The notes under the pieces are model-generated. The model ran no database searches, was not told the DNA's origin, and worked only from the letters and a program-made list of their open reading frames with translations. Of a stretch of DNA of 64,000 nt, positions 47,962-54,153 are shown one piece after another. The stretch is from an uncultured Methylibium sp. (GTDB lineage Bacteria; Pseudomonadota; Gammaproteobacteria; Burkholderiales; Burkholderiaceae_C), in the NCBI RefSeq assembly GCF_902826655.1, contig NZ_CADEFR010000012.1, positions 22,023 through 86,022 of the forward strand, in the 5' to 3' direction. The stretch's first letter is position 1, and every line of letters begins with the position of its first letter. The position numbers were made by a program, and so were the translations under genes.

Positions 47962-48127
47962 CACGAAATCATGTCACACGCGCGGCCGGGGACTCGGCGA
48001 GTTGTGGTCGAACGGACATATGTCGCTAGCAATGCCGGGACCCCGCGGCTATTCTCTTCAGCGATTCGCAAGCCAGCCATTAAGTCTTGGCGAAGCAAGC
48101 ACTTAGACGCTGTTGTTGGGAACCCGC

Positions 48128-49255
48128 ATGAACCGTCGCGACCTGATCCGGCAGATCGCCGCCACCGGGGCCAGTCTGGCCCTGCCCGCCCTGGCCCAGG
48201 AGGGTCGGACCATCGTGCTGGGACAGTCGGCCGCGTTCAGCGGCCCGGCCGCGCAGCTGGGCATCCAGATGAACAAGGGCGCGAGGATCTTCTTCGACCA
48301 GGTCAACGCCAGCGGCGGCATCAACAACCATTCGATCGACCTGCGCACCGCCGACGACGGCTACGAGCCCGATCGCTGCAAGGCCAACACCGAGAAGTTC
48401 ATCAAGGACGAGGTGTTCGCGCTCTTCGGCTACGTCGGCACGCCGACCTGCCTGGCCGCGCTGCCCCTGATCAACGAAGCCAAGATCCCGTTCTTCGGGC
48501 CGTTCACCGGTGCCGAGGCGCTGCGCGATCCGTTCAGCCGCTATGTCTTCCACCTGCGTGGCTCGTACTACGACGAGACGGCGCTGATCGTGAAGCAGCT
48601 GACCTCGCTGGGCCTGAACAAGATCGCGGTCTTCTACCAGGACGACGCCTACGGCAAGGCCGGCCTGGAAGGCGTGACGCGCGCGCTGAAGGCGCTGAAC
48701 CTGTCGCCGGTCGCGCTGGGCACGGTGCAGCGCAACACCGTCGACGTGGCCAAGGCGGTGGCGGAGATCGTGCCGAAGCAACCCAACGCCGTGGTGCAGA
48801 TCAGCGCCTACAAGAGCTGCGCGGCCTTCATCCGCGAGGCCCGCAAGGCCGGCTACGGCGGCACCTTCTACAACGTGAGCTTCGTGGGCACGCAGGCCCT
48901 GGCCGACGAGCTGGGCCGCGAAGGCCGCGGCGTCATGGTGAGCCAGGTGATGCCCTTCCCCTTCAGCACCACGACGCCGATCGCGCGCGAGTACCTGGAG
49001 GCCGTCCGCAAGGCCGGCGCCGATGCCACCGCAAACTACTCGAGCATGGAAGGCTACCTGGCGGCGAAGGTATTCGCCGAGGGCCTGAGGCGCGCCGGGC
49101 GCAACCCGTCGCGCGAAGCGCTCATCAACGGCCTCGAATCGATCAACAGCGCCAACTTCGGTGGATTCAACGTCAACTTCGGGCCGCGCGACCACGTGGC
49201 CTCGAGCTTCGTCGACCTGTCGATGCTGACCGAAGACGGCAAGGTCCGCCGCTAA
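48128..49255 (+). CDS. ABC transporter substrate-binding protein (LivK family), copy 1
   Basis: A 375-residue periplasmic binding protein of the branched-chain amino acid/amide type. The N-terminus MNRRDLIRQIAATGASLALPA is a Tat-like signal (twin arginine) ending near ALAQ, and the mature start IVLGQSAAFSGPAAQLG fits the family, followed by DDGYEPDRCKANTEKFI and FALFGYVGTPT. No permease or ATPase gene is adjacent. The gene downstream is a close paralogue 18 bp away, so this is a tandem duplication. The TTG five codons upstream is possible but the ATG gives the normal signal peptide. Confidence 0.9.
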   Translation: MNRRDLIRQIAATGASLALPALAQEGRTIVLGQSAAFSGPAAQLGIQMNKGARIFFDQVNASGGINNHSIDLRTADDGYEPDRCKANTEKFIKDEVFALFGYVGTPTCLAALPLINEAKIPFFGPFTGAEALRDPFSRYVFHLRGSYYDETALIVKQLTSLGLNKIAVFYQDDAYGKAGLEGVTRALKALNLSPVALGTVQRNTVDVAKAVAEIVPKQPNAVVQISAYKSCAAFIREARKAGYGGTFYNVSFVGTQALADELGREGRGVMVSQVMPFPFSTTTPIAREYLEAVRKAGADATANYSSMEGYLAAKVFAEGLRRAGRNPSREALINGLESINSANFGGFNVNFGPRDHVASSFVDLSMLTEDGKVRR

Positions 49256-49273
49256 ACGCAGGAGCAGTGCAAC

Positions 49274-50401
49274 ATGCAACGCCGCCAGTTCATCCAACGA
49301 CTCGGCGGCGCTGCTGCCGCAACGCTCGCCCTGCCGACACAGGCCCAGGCCGAGCGCAACCGCATCGTGCTGGGACAGTCGGCAGCGCTCAGCGGCCCGG
49401 CCGCCGAGCTGGGCCTGCAATTCCAGCGCGGCGCGAAGCTCTACTTCGAGCGCCTCAACGCGCGCGGCGGCATCAACGGCCGCGTGATCGAGCTGCGCAG
49501 CCTGGACGACGGCTACGAGCCCGAGCGTTGCAAGGCCAACACCGAACGCCTGATCCGCGAAGAGGTGTTCGCACTGTTCGGCTACATCGGCACGCCCACC
49601 AGCCTGGCGGCGCTGCCGCTGGCCACCGCGGCCAAGGTCCCCTTCGTCGCCCCCTTCACCGGTGCGCAGGCCCTGCGCGATCCGTTCAACCGCTACGCCT
49701 TCCACGTGCGCGCGTCCTACTTCGACGAGACCGCGCGCATCGTCAACCAGCTGGCCTCGCTGGGCACGAAGAAGATCGCGGTCTTCCACCAGAACGACAG
49801 CTACGGCCAGGCCGGCCTGGACGGCGTGACCCGCGCGATGAAGACGCTGGGGCTGACGCCGGTGGCCACGGCCACGGTCGAGCGCAATTCGGTCGAGGTG
49901 GCCGACGCCGTCAAGGCCATCACCGGGGCCGGACCCGAGGCCGTGGTCCAGATCAGCGCCTACAAGAGCTGCGCCGCCTTCATCCGCGCAGCGCGCAAGG
50001 CCGGCTACGGCGGCGGCTTCTACAACGTCAGCTTCGTCGGCACGGCGGCGCTCAGCCGCGAGCTGGGCGCCGACGCGCGCGGCGTCGTCGTCAGCCAGGT
50101 GATGCCCTATCCCTTCGCCCCGGTGTCGCCGCTGGCCGGCGAGTACCTGGCCGCCGGGCAGGGCGCGGCGGACTTCGAGGTCAACTACAGCAGCATGGAA
50201 GGCTATGTCGCCGCCAAGGTGCTGGCCGAAGCCCTGCGGCGCACCACCGGCGCTTCGCGCGAGGACCTGGTCGGCGGGCTGGAGAACCTGCGAGAGCACG
50301 ACCTCGGCGGCTTCTTCGTCGACTTCAACGCCCGCAAGCACACCGGATCGACCTTTGCCGAGATGACCATCCTGACCCAGGACGGACGCGTCAGGCGCTG
50401 A
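49274..50401 (+). CDS. ABC transporter substrate-binding protein (LivK family), copy 2
   Basis: A 375-residue paralogue of the preceding gene, of identical length, with a clear Tat signal MQRRQFIQRLGGAAAATLAL and mature start IVLGQSAALSGPAAELG. Both copies keep FALFGY-I/V-GTPT, QISAYKSCAAFI and the SSMEGY segment, but the ligand-pocket neighbourhood differs in several residues, so the two may bind different ligands. A GGAG ribosome-binding site precedes the ATG. Likely one operon with copy 1; no transporter genes follow. Confidence 0.92.
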   Translation: MQRRQFIQRLGGAAAATLALPTQAQAERNRIVLGQSAALSGPAAELGLQFQRGAKLYFERLNARGGINGRVIELRSLDDGYEPERCKANTERLIREEVFALFGYIGTPTSLAALPLATAAKVPFVAPFTGAQALRDPFNRYAFHVRASYFDETARIVNQLASLGTKKIAVFHQNDSYGQAGLDGVTRAMKTLGLTPVATATVERNSVEVADAVKAITGAGPEAVVQISAYKSCAAFIRAARKAGYGGGFYNVSFVGTAALSRELGADARGVVVSQVMPYPFAPVSPLAGEYLAAGQGAADFEVNYSSMEGYVAAKVLAEALRRTTGASREDLVGGLENLREHDLGGFFVDFNARKHTGSTFAEMTILTQDGRVRR

Positions 50402-50462: not shown

Positions 50463-51662
50463 ATGCAGTTGATCGAATCCATCCTCGCCGACAGCGCGGC
50501 CGTCGCCGCCATCCGCCGCGACCTGCACGCCCATCCGGAGCTGTGCTTCCAGGAGCAGCGCACCTCCGACGTCATCGCGAAGGCGCTCGCCGACTGGGGC
50601 ATCCCGGTGCACCGCGGCCTGGGCACGACCGGCGTCGTGGGCATCGTGAAGAACGGCTCGTCGTCGCGCGCCGTGGGCCTGCGCGCCGACATCGACGCGC
50701 TGCCCATCACCGAGCACAACCGCTTCGCGCACGCCAGCAAGCACCCCGGCAAGATGCACGCCTGCGGCCACGACGGCCACACGGCGATGCTGCTGGCGGC
50801 GGCCAAGCACCTGGCCCGGCACCGCCACTTCGACGGCACCGTCTACCTGATCTTCCAGCCGGCCGAGGAAGGCGGCGGCGGCGCGCGCGAGATGATCAAG
50901 GACGGCCTGTTCGACCGGTTCCCCATGGAGGCGGTGTTCGGTGCCCACAACTGGCCGGGGCTCGGGGCCGGCCAGTTCGCGCTCCGGGCCGGGCCGGTCT
51001 TCGCCAGCAGCAACGAGTTCAAGATCACGATCCGCGGCAAGGGCTCGCACGGCGCGATGCCGCACCTGGGCATCGATCCGGTGCCGGTGGCCTGCCAGAT
51101 GGTGCAGGCCTTCCAGACCATCATCACGCGCAACAAGCGGCCGCTGGACACCGGCGTGATCTCGGTGACGATGATCCACACCGGCGAGGCCACGAACGTG
51201 GTGCCCGACCACTGCGTGCTCGAGGGCACGGTGCGCACCTTCACCACGGAGGTCCTCGACCTGATCGAGCGCCGCATGAGGATCGTCGCCGAGCAGACCT
51301 GCGCCGCCTTCGAGGCCGGCTGCGAGTTCGAGTTCTCGCGCAACTACCCGCCGACGATCAACCATGCGGCAGAGACCGCGTTCGCGCGCACGGTGATGGC
51401 CGACGTCGTCGGTCCCGAGAACGTGCTCGAGTTCGAGCCGACGATGGGCGCCGAGGACTTCAGCTATTACCTGCAGCACCGGCCCGGCTGCTACTTCGTG
51501 ATCGGCAACGGCGACGGCGCGCATCGCGAAGGCGGCCACGGGCTGGGTCCCTGCATGCTGCACAACCCCAGTTACGACTTCAACGACGACCTGATCCCGC
51601 TGGGTGCGACGCTGTGGGTGCGCCTGGCCGAGCGCTGGCTCGCCCCGGCGGCGCCCGGCTAG
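50463..51662 (+). CDS. M20 family amidohydrolase (hippurate hydrolase-like)
   Basis: A 399-residue metallohydrolase of the HipO/IAA-amino-acid hydrolase group. Dinuclear metal ligands are visible in MHACGHDGHTAML (C101, H103), QPAEEGGGG (E135, E136) and NWPG; RADIDALPITE and the lid region GKGSHGAMPH are typical. It cleaves N-acyl amino acids; the specific substrate is unknown. A GAGGAG ribosome-binding site precedes the ATG. Its TAG stop and that of the convergent pgi lie in one palindromic CTAG (51659-51662). Confidence 0.93.
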   Translation: MQLIESILADSAAVAAIRRDLHAHPELCFQEQRTSDVIAKALADWGIPVHRGLGTTGVVGIVKNGSSSRAVGLRADIDALPITEHNRFAHASKHPGKMHACGHDGHTAMLLAAAKHLARHRHFDGTVYLIFQPAEEGGGGAREMIKDGLFDRFPMEAVFGAHNWPGLGAGQFALRAGPVFASSNEFKITIRGKGSHGAMPHLGIDPVPVACQMVQAFQTIITRNKRPLDTGVISVTMIHTGEATNVVPDHCVLEGTVRTFTTEVLDLIERRMRIVAEQTCAAFEAGCEFEFSRNYPPTINHAAETAFARTVMADVVGPENVLEFEPTMGAEDFSYYLQHRPGCYFVIGNGDGAHREGGHGLGPCMLHNPSYDFNDDLIPLGATLWVRLAERWLAPAAPG

Positions 51663-53290
51663 TCGCGCAGGCGCGCCAGCAGGCCGGCCGTCGACGCGTC
51701 GAGGCCCGTCACATCGCCGCTGTCCAGGCGCGGCAGCAGCTGATTGCACAGCACCTTGCCCAGTTCGACGCCCCACTGGTCGAAGCTGTTGATGCCCCAG
51801 ACCGCCCCGCTGCTGAAGACACGGTGCTCGTAGAGGGCGACCAGCGCCCCGAGGCTCGTCGGGTCGAGACGATCGAGCAGCAGCGTCGTGCTGGGTCGAT
51901 TGCCGGGGAAGCTGCGATGCCGCGCGACGGCCTGCCGCGACATCTGCGGCGAGGCGGTCGACGGCGACTCGAGCAGGGCTTCCTGCGCCGTCTTGCCCAG
52001 CATCAGCGCCTGCGATTGCGCCAGGCAGTTGGCCAGCAGCTTGCGATGCTGGTCCTCGAACGCGGCCCGTACCGCTGGCGCGAAGCCGAGCGGGCCGTGG
52101 CTGGTCGCGCGCACCGCGATGAACTCGACCGGGATCGTGTCCGTGCCCTGGTGCAGCATCTGGAAGTAGGCGTGCTGGCCGTTGGTCCCGGGCTCGCCCC
52201 AGACGACCGGCGCCGTCGCGACGCGCAGCGCCTCGCCCTGCGCGTCGACGCGCTTGCCGTTGCTCTCCATCTCGAGCTGCTGCAGGTAGGCCGGCAGACG
52301 CCGCAGGCCCTGGTGGTATGGCGCAACGCTGCGGCTCGCGAAGCCGTGGAAGTTGCGGTACCAGACGTCGAGCAGGCCCAGCAGCACGGGCAGGTTGCGC
52401 TCGAGCGGCGCCTCGGCGAAGTGGCGGTCCATCGCATGCGCGCCAGCCAGCATCGCGCGGAAGTGGTCGGCACCGATCGCGATCGCCAGCGGCAGGCCGA
52501 TCGCCGACCACAGCGAGTAGCGACCGCCGACCCAGTCCCAGAAGCCGAAGCTGGTGGTGATCCCGAAGGCCGCGGCGGCCTCGACGTTGGTGGTCGTGGC
52601 GACGAAGTGCTTCGCGATGTCGGTGCCGCCAGCTGCCAGGAACCAGGCCTTGGCGGCCTGCGCGTTGGCCATCGTCTCCTGCGTCGTGAAGGTCTTGGAG
52701 GCGACGACGAACAGCGTGTGCCGCGGATCGAGCCGCCGCAGCAGCGGACCCAGGTCGTGGCCGTCGACGTTGGCGACGAAATGGCTGTTCAGTTGTGGAT
52801 GGGCATAGCCCGCCAGTGCCGCTGCCGCCATCTGCGGACCCAGGTCGGAGCCGCCGATCCCGATGTTCACGACGTCGCGGATGCCGCTGGACTCGACCTG
52901 CCGGACCCGGTCGGCGTAGGCCAGCATCGCATCCAGCGTCGCATGCACCTCCGCCGAGAACGGCGCGCTGCCGCGCGGGGCACGCAGTGCCGTGTGCAGC
53001 ACCGCGCGCGACTCGCTGTCGTTGACCGGCTCGCCGGCCAGCATGCGATCGCGGCGCGCCTCGAGCCCCGTCTCCCGGGCGAGGTCCAGCAGGAAATGCA
53101 GCGTGGCGGTGTCGAGCAGGTTCTTCGACAGGTCGGCGAAGACCGACGGGGCTTCGAAGCTGAGGGACGTGTGGCGGTGCGGATCGCGGGCAAAGGCCTC
53201 GCGCAGGTCGAAGTCGCGGCCATGCGCCTGGAAATGCCCCTGCAGCGCGCTCCAGGCTGCCGTCTGGTCGCAGGCCACGGCGCGACTCAC
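51659..53290 (-). CDS. pgi: Glucose-6-phosphate isomerase
   Basis: Interconverts glucose-6-phosphate and fructose-6-phosphate. The 543 residues fit the family: VNIGIGGSDLGPQM, VASKTFTTQETM, the GGRYSLWSAIGL block and GVELGKVLCNQ. The start is taken as the GTG at 53290, overlapping the transaldolase-homologue stop by GTGA; a GTG at 53278 is the alternative. Coupling to a transaldolase gene makes sense for sugar-phosphate metabolism, although that partner looks catalytically broken (see below). Confidence 0.95.
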   Translation of the reverse strand: MSRAVACDQTAAWSALQGHFQAHGRDFDLREAFARDPHRHTSLSFEAPSVFADLSKNLLDTATLHFLLDLARETGLEARRDRMLAGEPVNDSESRAVLHTALRAPRGSAPFSAEVHATLDAMLAYADRVRQVESSGIRDVVNIGIGGSDLGPQMAAAALAGYAHPQLNSHFVANVDGHDLGPLLRRLDPRHTLFVVASKTFTTQETMANAQAAKAWFLAAGGTDIAKHFVATTTNVEAAAAFGITTSFGFWDWVGGRYSLWSAIGLPLAIAIGADHFRAMLAGAHAMDRHFAEAPLERNLPVLLGLLDVWYRNFHGFASRSVAPYHQGLRRLPAYLQQLEMESNGKRVDAQGEALRVATAPVVWGEPGTNGQHAYFQMLHQGTDTIPVEFIAVRATSHGPLGFAPAVRAAFEDQHRKLLANCLAQSQALMLGKTAQEALLESPSTASPQMSRQAVARHRSFPGNRPSTTLLLDRLDPTSLGALVALYEHRVFSSGAVWGINSFDQWGVELGKVLCNQLLPRLDSGDVTGLDASTAGLLARLRD

Positions 53291-54153
53291 AGCGCGCGGA
53301 TCCGCTGCTCGAGCCGCTGCGCGTCGGCCGCAGCGGCCCGCACGCCGGATGCCAGCCGCTCGCTCGCCACGGCATCGTCGTTCAAGGCGTAGCGAAAGCT
53401 CGGCTCGTTGTAGCTCGAGGCCTTGGCATCGCAATGAAGCGCTGCATCGGGATCCAGGGCGCGGGCCAGCGGCGCCTGGCTGGCCTGCAACTGCGCCAGC
53501 AGGTCGAGGTCGAGCGCGATCAGGTCGCAACCGCTCAGCGCCAGCGCCTGCGCGACGTCGTTCAGGCCGTCGGCCATGACCTCGGTATCGACGCCGAACT
53601 TGCGGAAGTAGCGCCAGACGCCGGCCGCCACATCGGCACCCGCCGACAGCAGCGGCACGCCGGCCTCGCCGGCCGCCACCGCCTGGCACGGTGCGAAGAC
53701 GCAGGCCAGGTGGGTGTGCACGCCGTGGTGGCCCAGGGCCTTGGCGGCCTGGAGGCCCTCCCAGGTCGCGGGGATGCGCACCCGCAGCCGGTCGGGCGGC
53801 AGGCCTTCGGATTCGTACAGGCTGGCGATGCGCTGGGCACGCGCGACGATCGCGGCGGTGTCGAAGCTCGAGCGCGCGTCGAGCTCGGTGGAGACCCAGC
53901 CCGGCACGACGCCGAGCAGCTCGCAGCCGAAACGCACGAGCAGCCGGTCGAGCAGTGCATCAGGCGGCTGGCCGCGATGGGTCGCGACGGTCTGCGCCAG
54001 CAGCGGCGCGCAGACAGGGTCGTCCAGCGCCTCGAGGACACGCGCCATGCCAAGGCTCGCGGCGTGCGGCGCGAACGCGCTCAACCGGCCGAACCGTGCG
54101 GTGTCGGCGACCACGGGCGAGAGAAGCTGGAGCTGCTCGAGTTGGCTGGGCAT
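53287..54153 (-). CDS. tal: Transaldolase-family protein lacking the Schiff-base lysine
   Basis: A 288-residue homologue of TalB (E. coli 317), shorter by a loop after residue 170. Numbering offset 6 is constant through the middle. D17 and E96 (here E90) and S176 (S170) are kept. The Schiff-base lysine K132 is R126 (codon CGC, in RLRVRIPATW), T156 is A150, the ATTNPS motif with N35 is gone, and the SPFVGR and SFRN phosphate-binding arginines are replaced. The frame is intact, so this is not a sequencing frameshift. Transaldolase activity as known would require the lysine, so a non-catalytic or altered role is likely. It overlaps pgi by GTGA. Confidence 0.88.
   Translation of the reverse strand: MPSQLEQLQLLSPVVADTARFGRLSAFAPHAASLGMARVLEALDDPVCAPLLAQTVATHRGQPPDALLDRLLVRFGCELLGVVPGWVSTELDARSSFDTAAIVARAQRIASLYESEGLPPDRLRVRIPATWEGLQAAKALGHHGVHTHLACVFAPCQAVAAGEAGVPLLSAGADVAAGVWRYFRKFGVDTEVMADGLNDVAQALALSGCDLIALDLDLLAQLQASQAPLARALDPDAALHCDAKASSYNEPSFRYALNDDAVASERLASGVRAAAADAQRLEQRIRAL

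Follow-up and report, generated by a model that had tools for sequence, protein, structure and literature searches.

The window analysed here is a stretch of 64,000 nucleotides from a contig of an uncultured Methylibium sp., the genome of which is a draft of 4.22 Mb in 142 contigs (completeness 100, contamination 4.24). Its reverse strand carries, beside an intact glucose-6-phosphate isomerase gene (pgi), a reading frame with the limits and strand already given to it in the preliminary description, and it is open throughout, as was claimed there (Table 1). The frame is homologous to the transaldolases, being matched by the Pfam family PF00923 (TAL_FSA) at E 1.1e-37, and its score against the equivalog model TIGR00874 is 210.6 bits, about half of the cut-off of 396.2 bits.

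Table 1. Features of the tal-pgi locus, in positions of the window.
Feature	Position	Strand	Basis
pgi, glucose-6-phosphate isomerase, intact	51659..53290	-	NF001211, E 3.1e-222 (53278 start)
Transaldolase ortholog (288 aa), active site non-functional	53287..54153	-	PF00923 match, alignment
TTNPS motif replaced by SLGMA, codons 33-37	54043..54057	-	Alignment
Codon 126 (CGC, Arg126), at the place of the Schiff-base Lys132	53776..53778	-	Alignment, codon read
Codons 196-198 (G-L-N), replacing S226 and the phosphate-binding R228	53560..53568	-	Alignment
Site at which 28 codons are deleted in frame, following S170 (stretch with F178 and R181 gone)	53643..53644	-	Alignment; in the model, strand 6 is followed immediately by helix 6

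The tal locus and its orthologs

The order of mla-type genes (named by eye), tal and pgi is common to the window, the congeners G001 and G002, and the relatives G112, G070, and G251. In the congeners G003 and G004, what was seen was pgi adjoining tal, so that the two genes are neighbours in four of the five congeners, with pgi not found beside tal in G005. Given this conservation of the surrounding order, the gene in the window is orthologous to the tal that the congeners have intact, rather than a stray paralog. It is also the sole PF00923 gene found in the draft genome, and a search for a second tal across the whole 4.22 Mb, as the preliminary description had recommended, recovered none.

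Identity between the window protein and its counterparts in the five congeners is 55-61%, against 78-97% among the congeners themselves. The pgi gene presents no such jump: where it lies beside tal, in four congeners, identity to the window's copy is 73-76%, and 77-96% among those four. This gene, the mla-type genes, and gltD (the last two recognized by eye) are open, stand in the order of G001 and G002, and lie at ordinary distances.

The preliminary description also had tal overlapping pgi, which is plausible, as a GTG at 53290 would overlap the tal stop codon as GTGA, but remains unproven, given the alternative GTG at 53278 and the variation of the overlap in relatives. The junction reads TGATG in two congeners (L040 and L041) and in one member of another genus (L047), while in the relatives L045 and L046 pgi seems to begin after a gap, and no pgi was found after tal in the stretch fetched from the congener G005 (L044). 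In this last stretch, a short tandem repeat of tgaggctctc comes after the tal stop codon. A fused transaldolase/phosphoglucose isomerase model (PRK09533) exists in NCBIfam. Beyond pgi, the window contains two similar adjacent reading frames of 380 and 375 residues (48113-50401, plus strand), which resemble, by eye, tandem periplasmic amino-acid-binding proteins, followed by an apparent M20-type amidohydrolase at 50463-51662.

Active-site residues and predicted structure

The residues were compared in an alignment of 33 sequences, made up of the window protein, Escherichia coli TalB (from MG1655), and 31 relatives, five of them congeners. These relatives were the nearest matches, one per genome, from the 276 matching genomes of a family draw of 299 genomes in 141 genera, together with two more congeners. 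A separate scan of genome contigs, from which records near the source genome may be missing, added 17 distant homologues at 33-37% identity.

In the numbering of TalB, in which Lys132 forms the Schiff base and Arg181 and Arg228 bind phosphate, the window protein retains D17, S94 (its own S88), E96 (E90), and S176 (S170). Against these stand the replacements T33S, N35G, K132R, N154H, T156A, S226G, and R228N, and a deletion of 28 residues just past S170 that includes F178 to R181. Both phosphate-binding arginines are thus gone, position 181 through the deletion and position 228 through its replacement by Asn198. Every active-site residue that was lost or changed is retained in all 31 relatives, the congeners included. 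Further replacements at the pocket are radical (P36M, L38R, L124R, A128P, and A195D).

The structure predicted by AlphaFold2 has a pLDDT of 95.9 and all eight strands of the barrel, and its first 32 matches in the PDB are transaldolase-type entries (query TM 0.87-0.96), the fold matching that of TalB and of mouse and human transaldolase. As the input alignment consisted of the 31 intact relatives, the high pLDDT is weak evidence for folding, and indicates instead that the sequence is compatible with the fold. In the model, strand 6 (168-172) passes straight into helix 6, and the deletion appears to take out the substrate loop while leaving the barrel unbroken. The remaining lysines of the protein (138, 185, and 244) are located in modelled helices or in a loop; there is none on any barrel strand, the place on strand 4 being occupied by Arg126. 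A Schiff base cannot form at such a site, and Schiff-base chemistry on the strands of the modelled barrel is accordingly not possible.

The residue-level part of the preliminary description is borne out by the alignment, both in what it listed as kept (D17, E96, and S176) and in what it listed as lost (K132 to arginine, T156 to alanine, the TTNPS motif, and the two arginines); the deletion was not named there. Its view that the known mechanism would not work agrees with the loss of the catalytic set and the lack of a strand lysine in the model. A base-calling error at codon 126, which it had named as a possible refutation, is excluded by the fact that some 40% of the residues differ. The suggestion that relatives with arginine at position 132 might form a clade of their own beside pgi did not hold, as no such clade was found and the five congeners are intact. 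In a search for relatives sharing the lost residues, none of the matches listed for other genomes among the 299 spans the full length of the window protein. The other family genomes with a strong match show at least two matches each, among those listed, as would be expected where the deletion in the window splits an intact tal, and three genomes of a single genus (G111, G207, and G280) show one weak match each.

Selection on the remaining codons

The codon tests drew on 14 of the 31 relatives and were confined to alignment columns that the window protein occupies, which leaves out the deleted stretch; the background of the codon model, with three site classes, was given 25 optimisation steps and fixed thereafter. 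On the branch of the species, the omega of tal is 0.19, in comparison with 0.066 in the background (2dlnL 12.9), and is also below 1 (2dlnL 48), while pgi, mlaE, and mlaD show no difference between branches. Synonymous change is near saturation on this branch, which makes its length and the timing of events uncertain. A model with two classes of sites, in which about 38% are released and the rest constrained, surpasses a uniform model of recent neutrality by 2dlnL 44, and none of 100 parametric bootstraps under uniform decay came near this value (highest 3.8). Recent uniform decay of tal, which was fitted as a model of its own, is thus rejected in favour of the two classes. When the neutral composition is made GC3-like, the gain becomes 42 and the released fraction 0.22; part of the support comes from codons hit more than once, a pattern that multi-nucleotide mutations might also produce. 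For the released sites, the fitted neutral length is approximately 2.4 per codon, close to the length of the whole branch (1.8-2.3, by the neighbour genes), which would place the loss early. The GC content at codon positions 1 and 2 is 0.64 in the window gene and 0.56-0.61 in the others, a sign of relaxed constraint on the protein.

The changes are concentrated at the pocket. At the 140 codons that are invariant in the 14 relatives, 24 of the 36 within two residues of an active-site residue have changed, against 29 of the 104 elsewhere (p 6e-5). In TalB, a working and more distant enzyme, the pattern is reversed, with one of 35 near positions and 16 of 85 far positions changed at 120 family-invariant positions, where the window protein has 23 of 35 and 24 of 85, respectively.

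The replacements are also mild. The 53 changes have a mean BLOSUM62 score of +0.09, against -0.72 to -0.90 in neutral simulations, none of which reached the observed value (0 of 1500 in each of seven settings), and large hydrophobic residues gave way to non-hydrophobic ones in four of 23 cases (17%, against 45-54% in the simulations). There is a single new proline where 3-11 would be expected, a deficit that is not significant at 50% GC, and new charges are not significantly fewer than under neutrality in most settings. Other features would, by themselves, suit uniform drift: the non-synonymous steps at the 140 invariant codons (87, 41, and 12 codons with zero, one, and two steps) fit a single Poisson distribution, and the rate of change is similar across the conserved classes (39%, 30%, and 35%). 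Along the chain, the changes cluster only moderately (p 0.006 for the invariant positions, and 0.07-0.14 for wider sets).

The earlier claim that selection keeps the gene is therefore supported by the omega values, the two-class model, the mildness of the changes, and their concentration at the pocket, and is opposed by the Poisson steps, the similar class rates, and the moderate clustering. The proposal of a pseudoenzyme gains support as well: the catalytic residues are lost and the pattern of substitution speaks against free decay, with a scaffold under purifying selection, subject to the caveats of Poisson steps, class rates, and multi-nucleotide mutations.

Transaldolase loss, a possible bypass, and the fate of the protein

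The source genome encodes a PPi-type phosphofructokinase (NF010675, 643.8 bits against a cut-off of 273), a transketolase (TIGR00232, above its cut-off), and a fructose-bisphosphate (FBP) aldolase, which are the genes of the sedoheptulose-bisphosphate (SBP) pathway. The first and last of these enzymes are reported to stand in for transaldolase in clostridia (PMC7029132). Judging by its genes, the organism could run the same route, which could explain the loss of tal. The genome also contains a cbb cluster (cbbLSXFP) with a LysR regulator, the large and small subunits of RuBisCO, an AAA protein (CbbX-like by position), an FBPase, which passes the Pfam cut-offs and fails the NCBIfam equivalog cut-offs, and a PRK. 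The congeners G001 and G002 carry the same bypass genes and yet have an intact tal, so the bypass may permit the loss, but neither forces nor causes it. The source genome, G001, and G002, three of the six genomes in the genus, have a transketolase, but the C-terminal domain of G6PD was found in none of them, and as it is equally absent from the two congeners that keep tal, a missing oxidative pentose-phosphate branch was discarded as the cause. In the congeners G003 (C17:46131-47646) and G004 (C338:762-2277), FBPase and PRK lie side by side, and no large subunit of RuBisCO was found in either draft assembly, where its absence may be a gap.

Across the family draw, 23 of the 299 genomes have no tal match, three of these being recognized from gaps in the numbering of the match list. 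Absence of tal occurs several times inside genera whose other members have the gene. A PPi-type phosphofructokinase is present in 16 of these 23 genomes and in 95 of the 276 with a tal match (p 0.001), when assigned by E-value class and number of matches, with at least two matches defining a carrier, some of which may be split matches of the ATP type. A stricter count, restricted to genomes whose best match falls in the PPi class, yields 12 of 23 versus 54 of 276 (p 0.0009). If, in the wider count, the three weak-match genomes (G111, G207, and G280) are added to those lacking tal, 19 of 26 carry the enzyme, versus 92 of 273. These 26 genomes belong to 20 genera, 13 of them with the PPi-type enzyme, and as several are incomplete or related, the p-values (0.001 to 0.00004) overstate their independence. 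RuBisCO was tried as a predictor of the lack of tal and set aside, the link being weak (12 of 23 against 86 of 276, p 0.06; or, adding the weak-match genomes to those lacking tal, 14 of 26 versus 84 of 273, p 0.03).

Taken together, these observations, with the dead tal known from a single genome, suggest that the original tal of the species has probably become a pseudoenzyme in place, released early from catalysis, with its fold still under selection. Selection for transaldolase activity would have ended early on the species' own branch, with sedoheptulose-7-phosphate (S7P) handled otherwise, by a PPi-dependent phosphofructokinase that may convert it reversibly to SBP, which FBP aldolase would then split into E4P and DHAP; the bisphosphatase of the Calvin cycle is a further possibility. 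The pocket would then have been free to change and the substrate loop to be lost, while the rest of the barrel would have remained under selection to fold, in a protein that is presumably still made and has a role apart from transaldolase catalysis. This role is most likely a structural one, and Pgi, encoded by the overlapping or adjoining gene, may be the partner; the fused model PRK09533 would fit such a pairing.

It is also conceivable, if rather doubtful, that the locus was reused, the barrel serving as a non-catalytic subunit or sensor of Pgi, or as a binder of an anionic ligand through Arg126, His148, and Asn198, with catalysis left to the PPi-type phosphofructokinase and aldolase. If so, a single species would have made a regulator, at the original locus, out of an enzyme of central metabolism.

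A different view of the open frame, which seems unlikely, is that the protein has no function, the translational coupling of tal to pgi selecting against stops and frameshifts, and the cost of misfolding keeping the changes mild. The possible GTGA overlap in the window and the TGATG of L040, L041, and L047 would fit such a spacer, as would the frame itself, in which the sole type of indel is an in-frame deletion, the Poisson steps at invariant codons, and the raised GC at positions 1 and 2; the overlap varies, however, with the gap before pgi in L045 and L046 and no pgi found beside tal in L044. Keeping the frame would, moreover, predict no preference for mild changes, and those observed are much milder than neutral and depend on distance from the pocket. 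For these two reasons, a structural protein, perhaps a partner of Pgi, is favoured, on the pattern of codon change, over a translated and folded product kept for the translation of pgi. Slightly less plausible again is a new enzyme or ligand-binding protein with a rebuilt pocket, in which D17, S88, E90, and S170 are kept and R126, H148, and N198 are new. The concentration of changes at the pocket, the radical ones included, and the four original residues retained there are consistent with this, but the new residues turned up in none of the relatives compared, where their conservation might have been seen, which leaves rebuilding indistinguishable from release.

That the gene is an ordinary pseudogene which has yet to acquire a stop or frameshift is highly improbable. 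The absence of stops says little by itself, as some 180 neutral substitutions would leave the frame free of them with a probability of 0.01-0.27 under the base compositions assumed, and the Poisson step counts would suit decay; on the other side are an omega well below 1, the mild changes, the pocket-specific pattern, the lack of any frameshifting indel (probability no higher than about 0.02, given the fitted distance and assumed indel rates), and the failure of all 100 uniform-decay bootstraps to reach the two-class gain. An artefact of sequencing, assembly, or contamination, to which a fragmented draft with some estimated contamination might be open, can practically be dismissed, given that the neighbouring genes are open, in their usual order, and at ordinary distances, and that the difference consists of many codon changes, unlike scattered errors.

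The favoured reading, an orthologous transaldolase that has turned pseudoenzyme, may be set beside known systems. Cellulolytic clostridia with an SBP pathway are described in PMC7029132, and the source genome resembles them in its PPi-type phosphofructokinase, FBP aldolase, and transketolase, and in having no working tal; most of those clostridia have no annotated tal, whereas here a dead one is kept in place, and the action of the phosphofructokinase on S7P is putative. The same paper treats the extent of the transaldolase-free SBP pathway as an open question (PMC7029132). As the lack of tal goes with a PPi-type phosphofructokinase in this family, the pathway is testable there.

The window protein is like the transaldolases of the TalA/TalB type (EC 2.2.1.2; TIGR00874, PF00923) in sequence, in position beside pgi, in its predicted (beta/alpha)8 barrel, and in D17, S94, E96, and S176, and differs from them in having no Schiff-base lysine, TTNPS motif, N154, T156, S226, or phosphate-binding arginine, and in its 28 deleted residues. 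No transaldolase pseudoenzyme or inactive transaldolase was found among the literature matches listed. Pseudoenzymes are mostly paralogs that exist beside a live copy. The window protein shares with them the loss of catalytic residues on a scaffold apparently under selection, but its gene replaces the sole ortholog found, with no live enzyme alongside. That the sole ortholog found of this core pentose-phosphate enzyme is dead, while its scaffold still seems to be selected, would mean that selection on catalysis is separable from selection on the protein.
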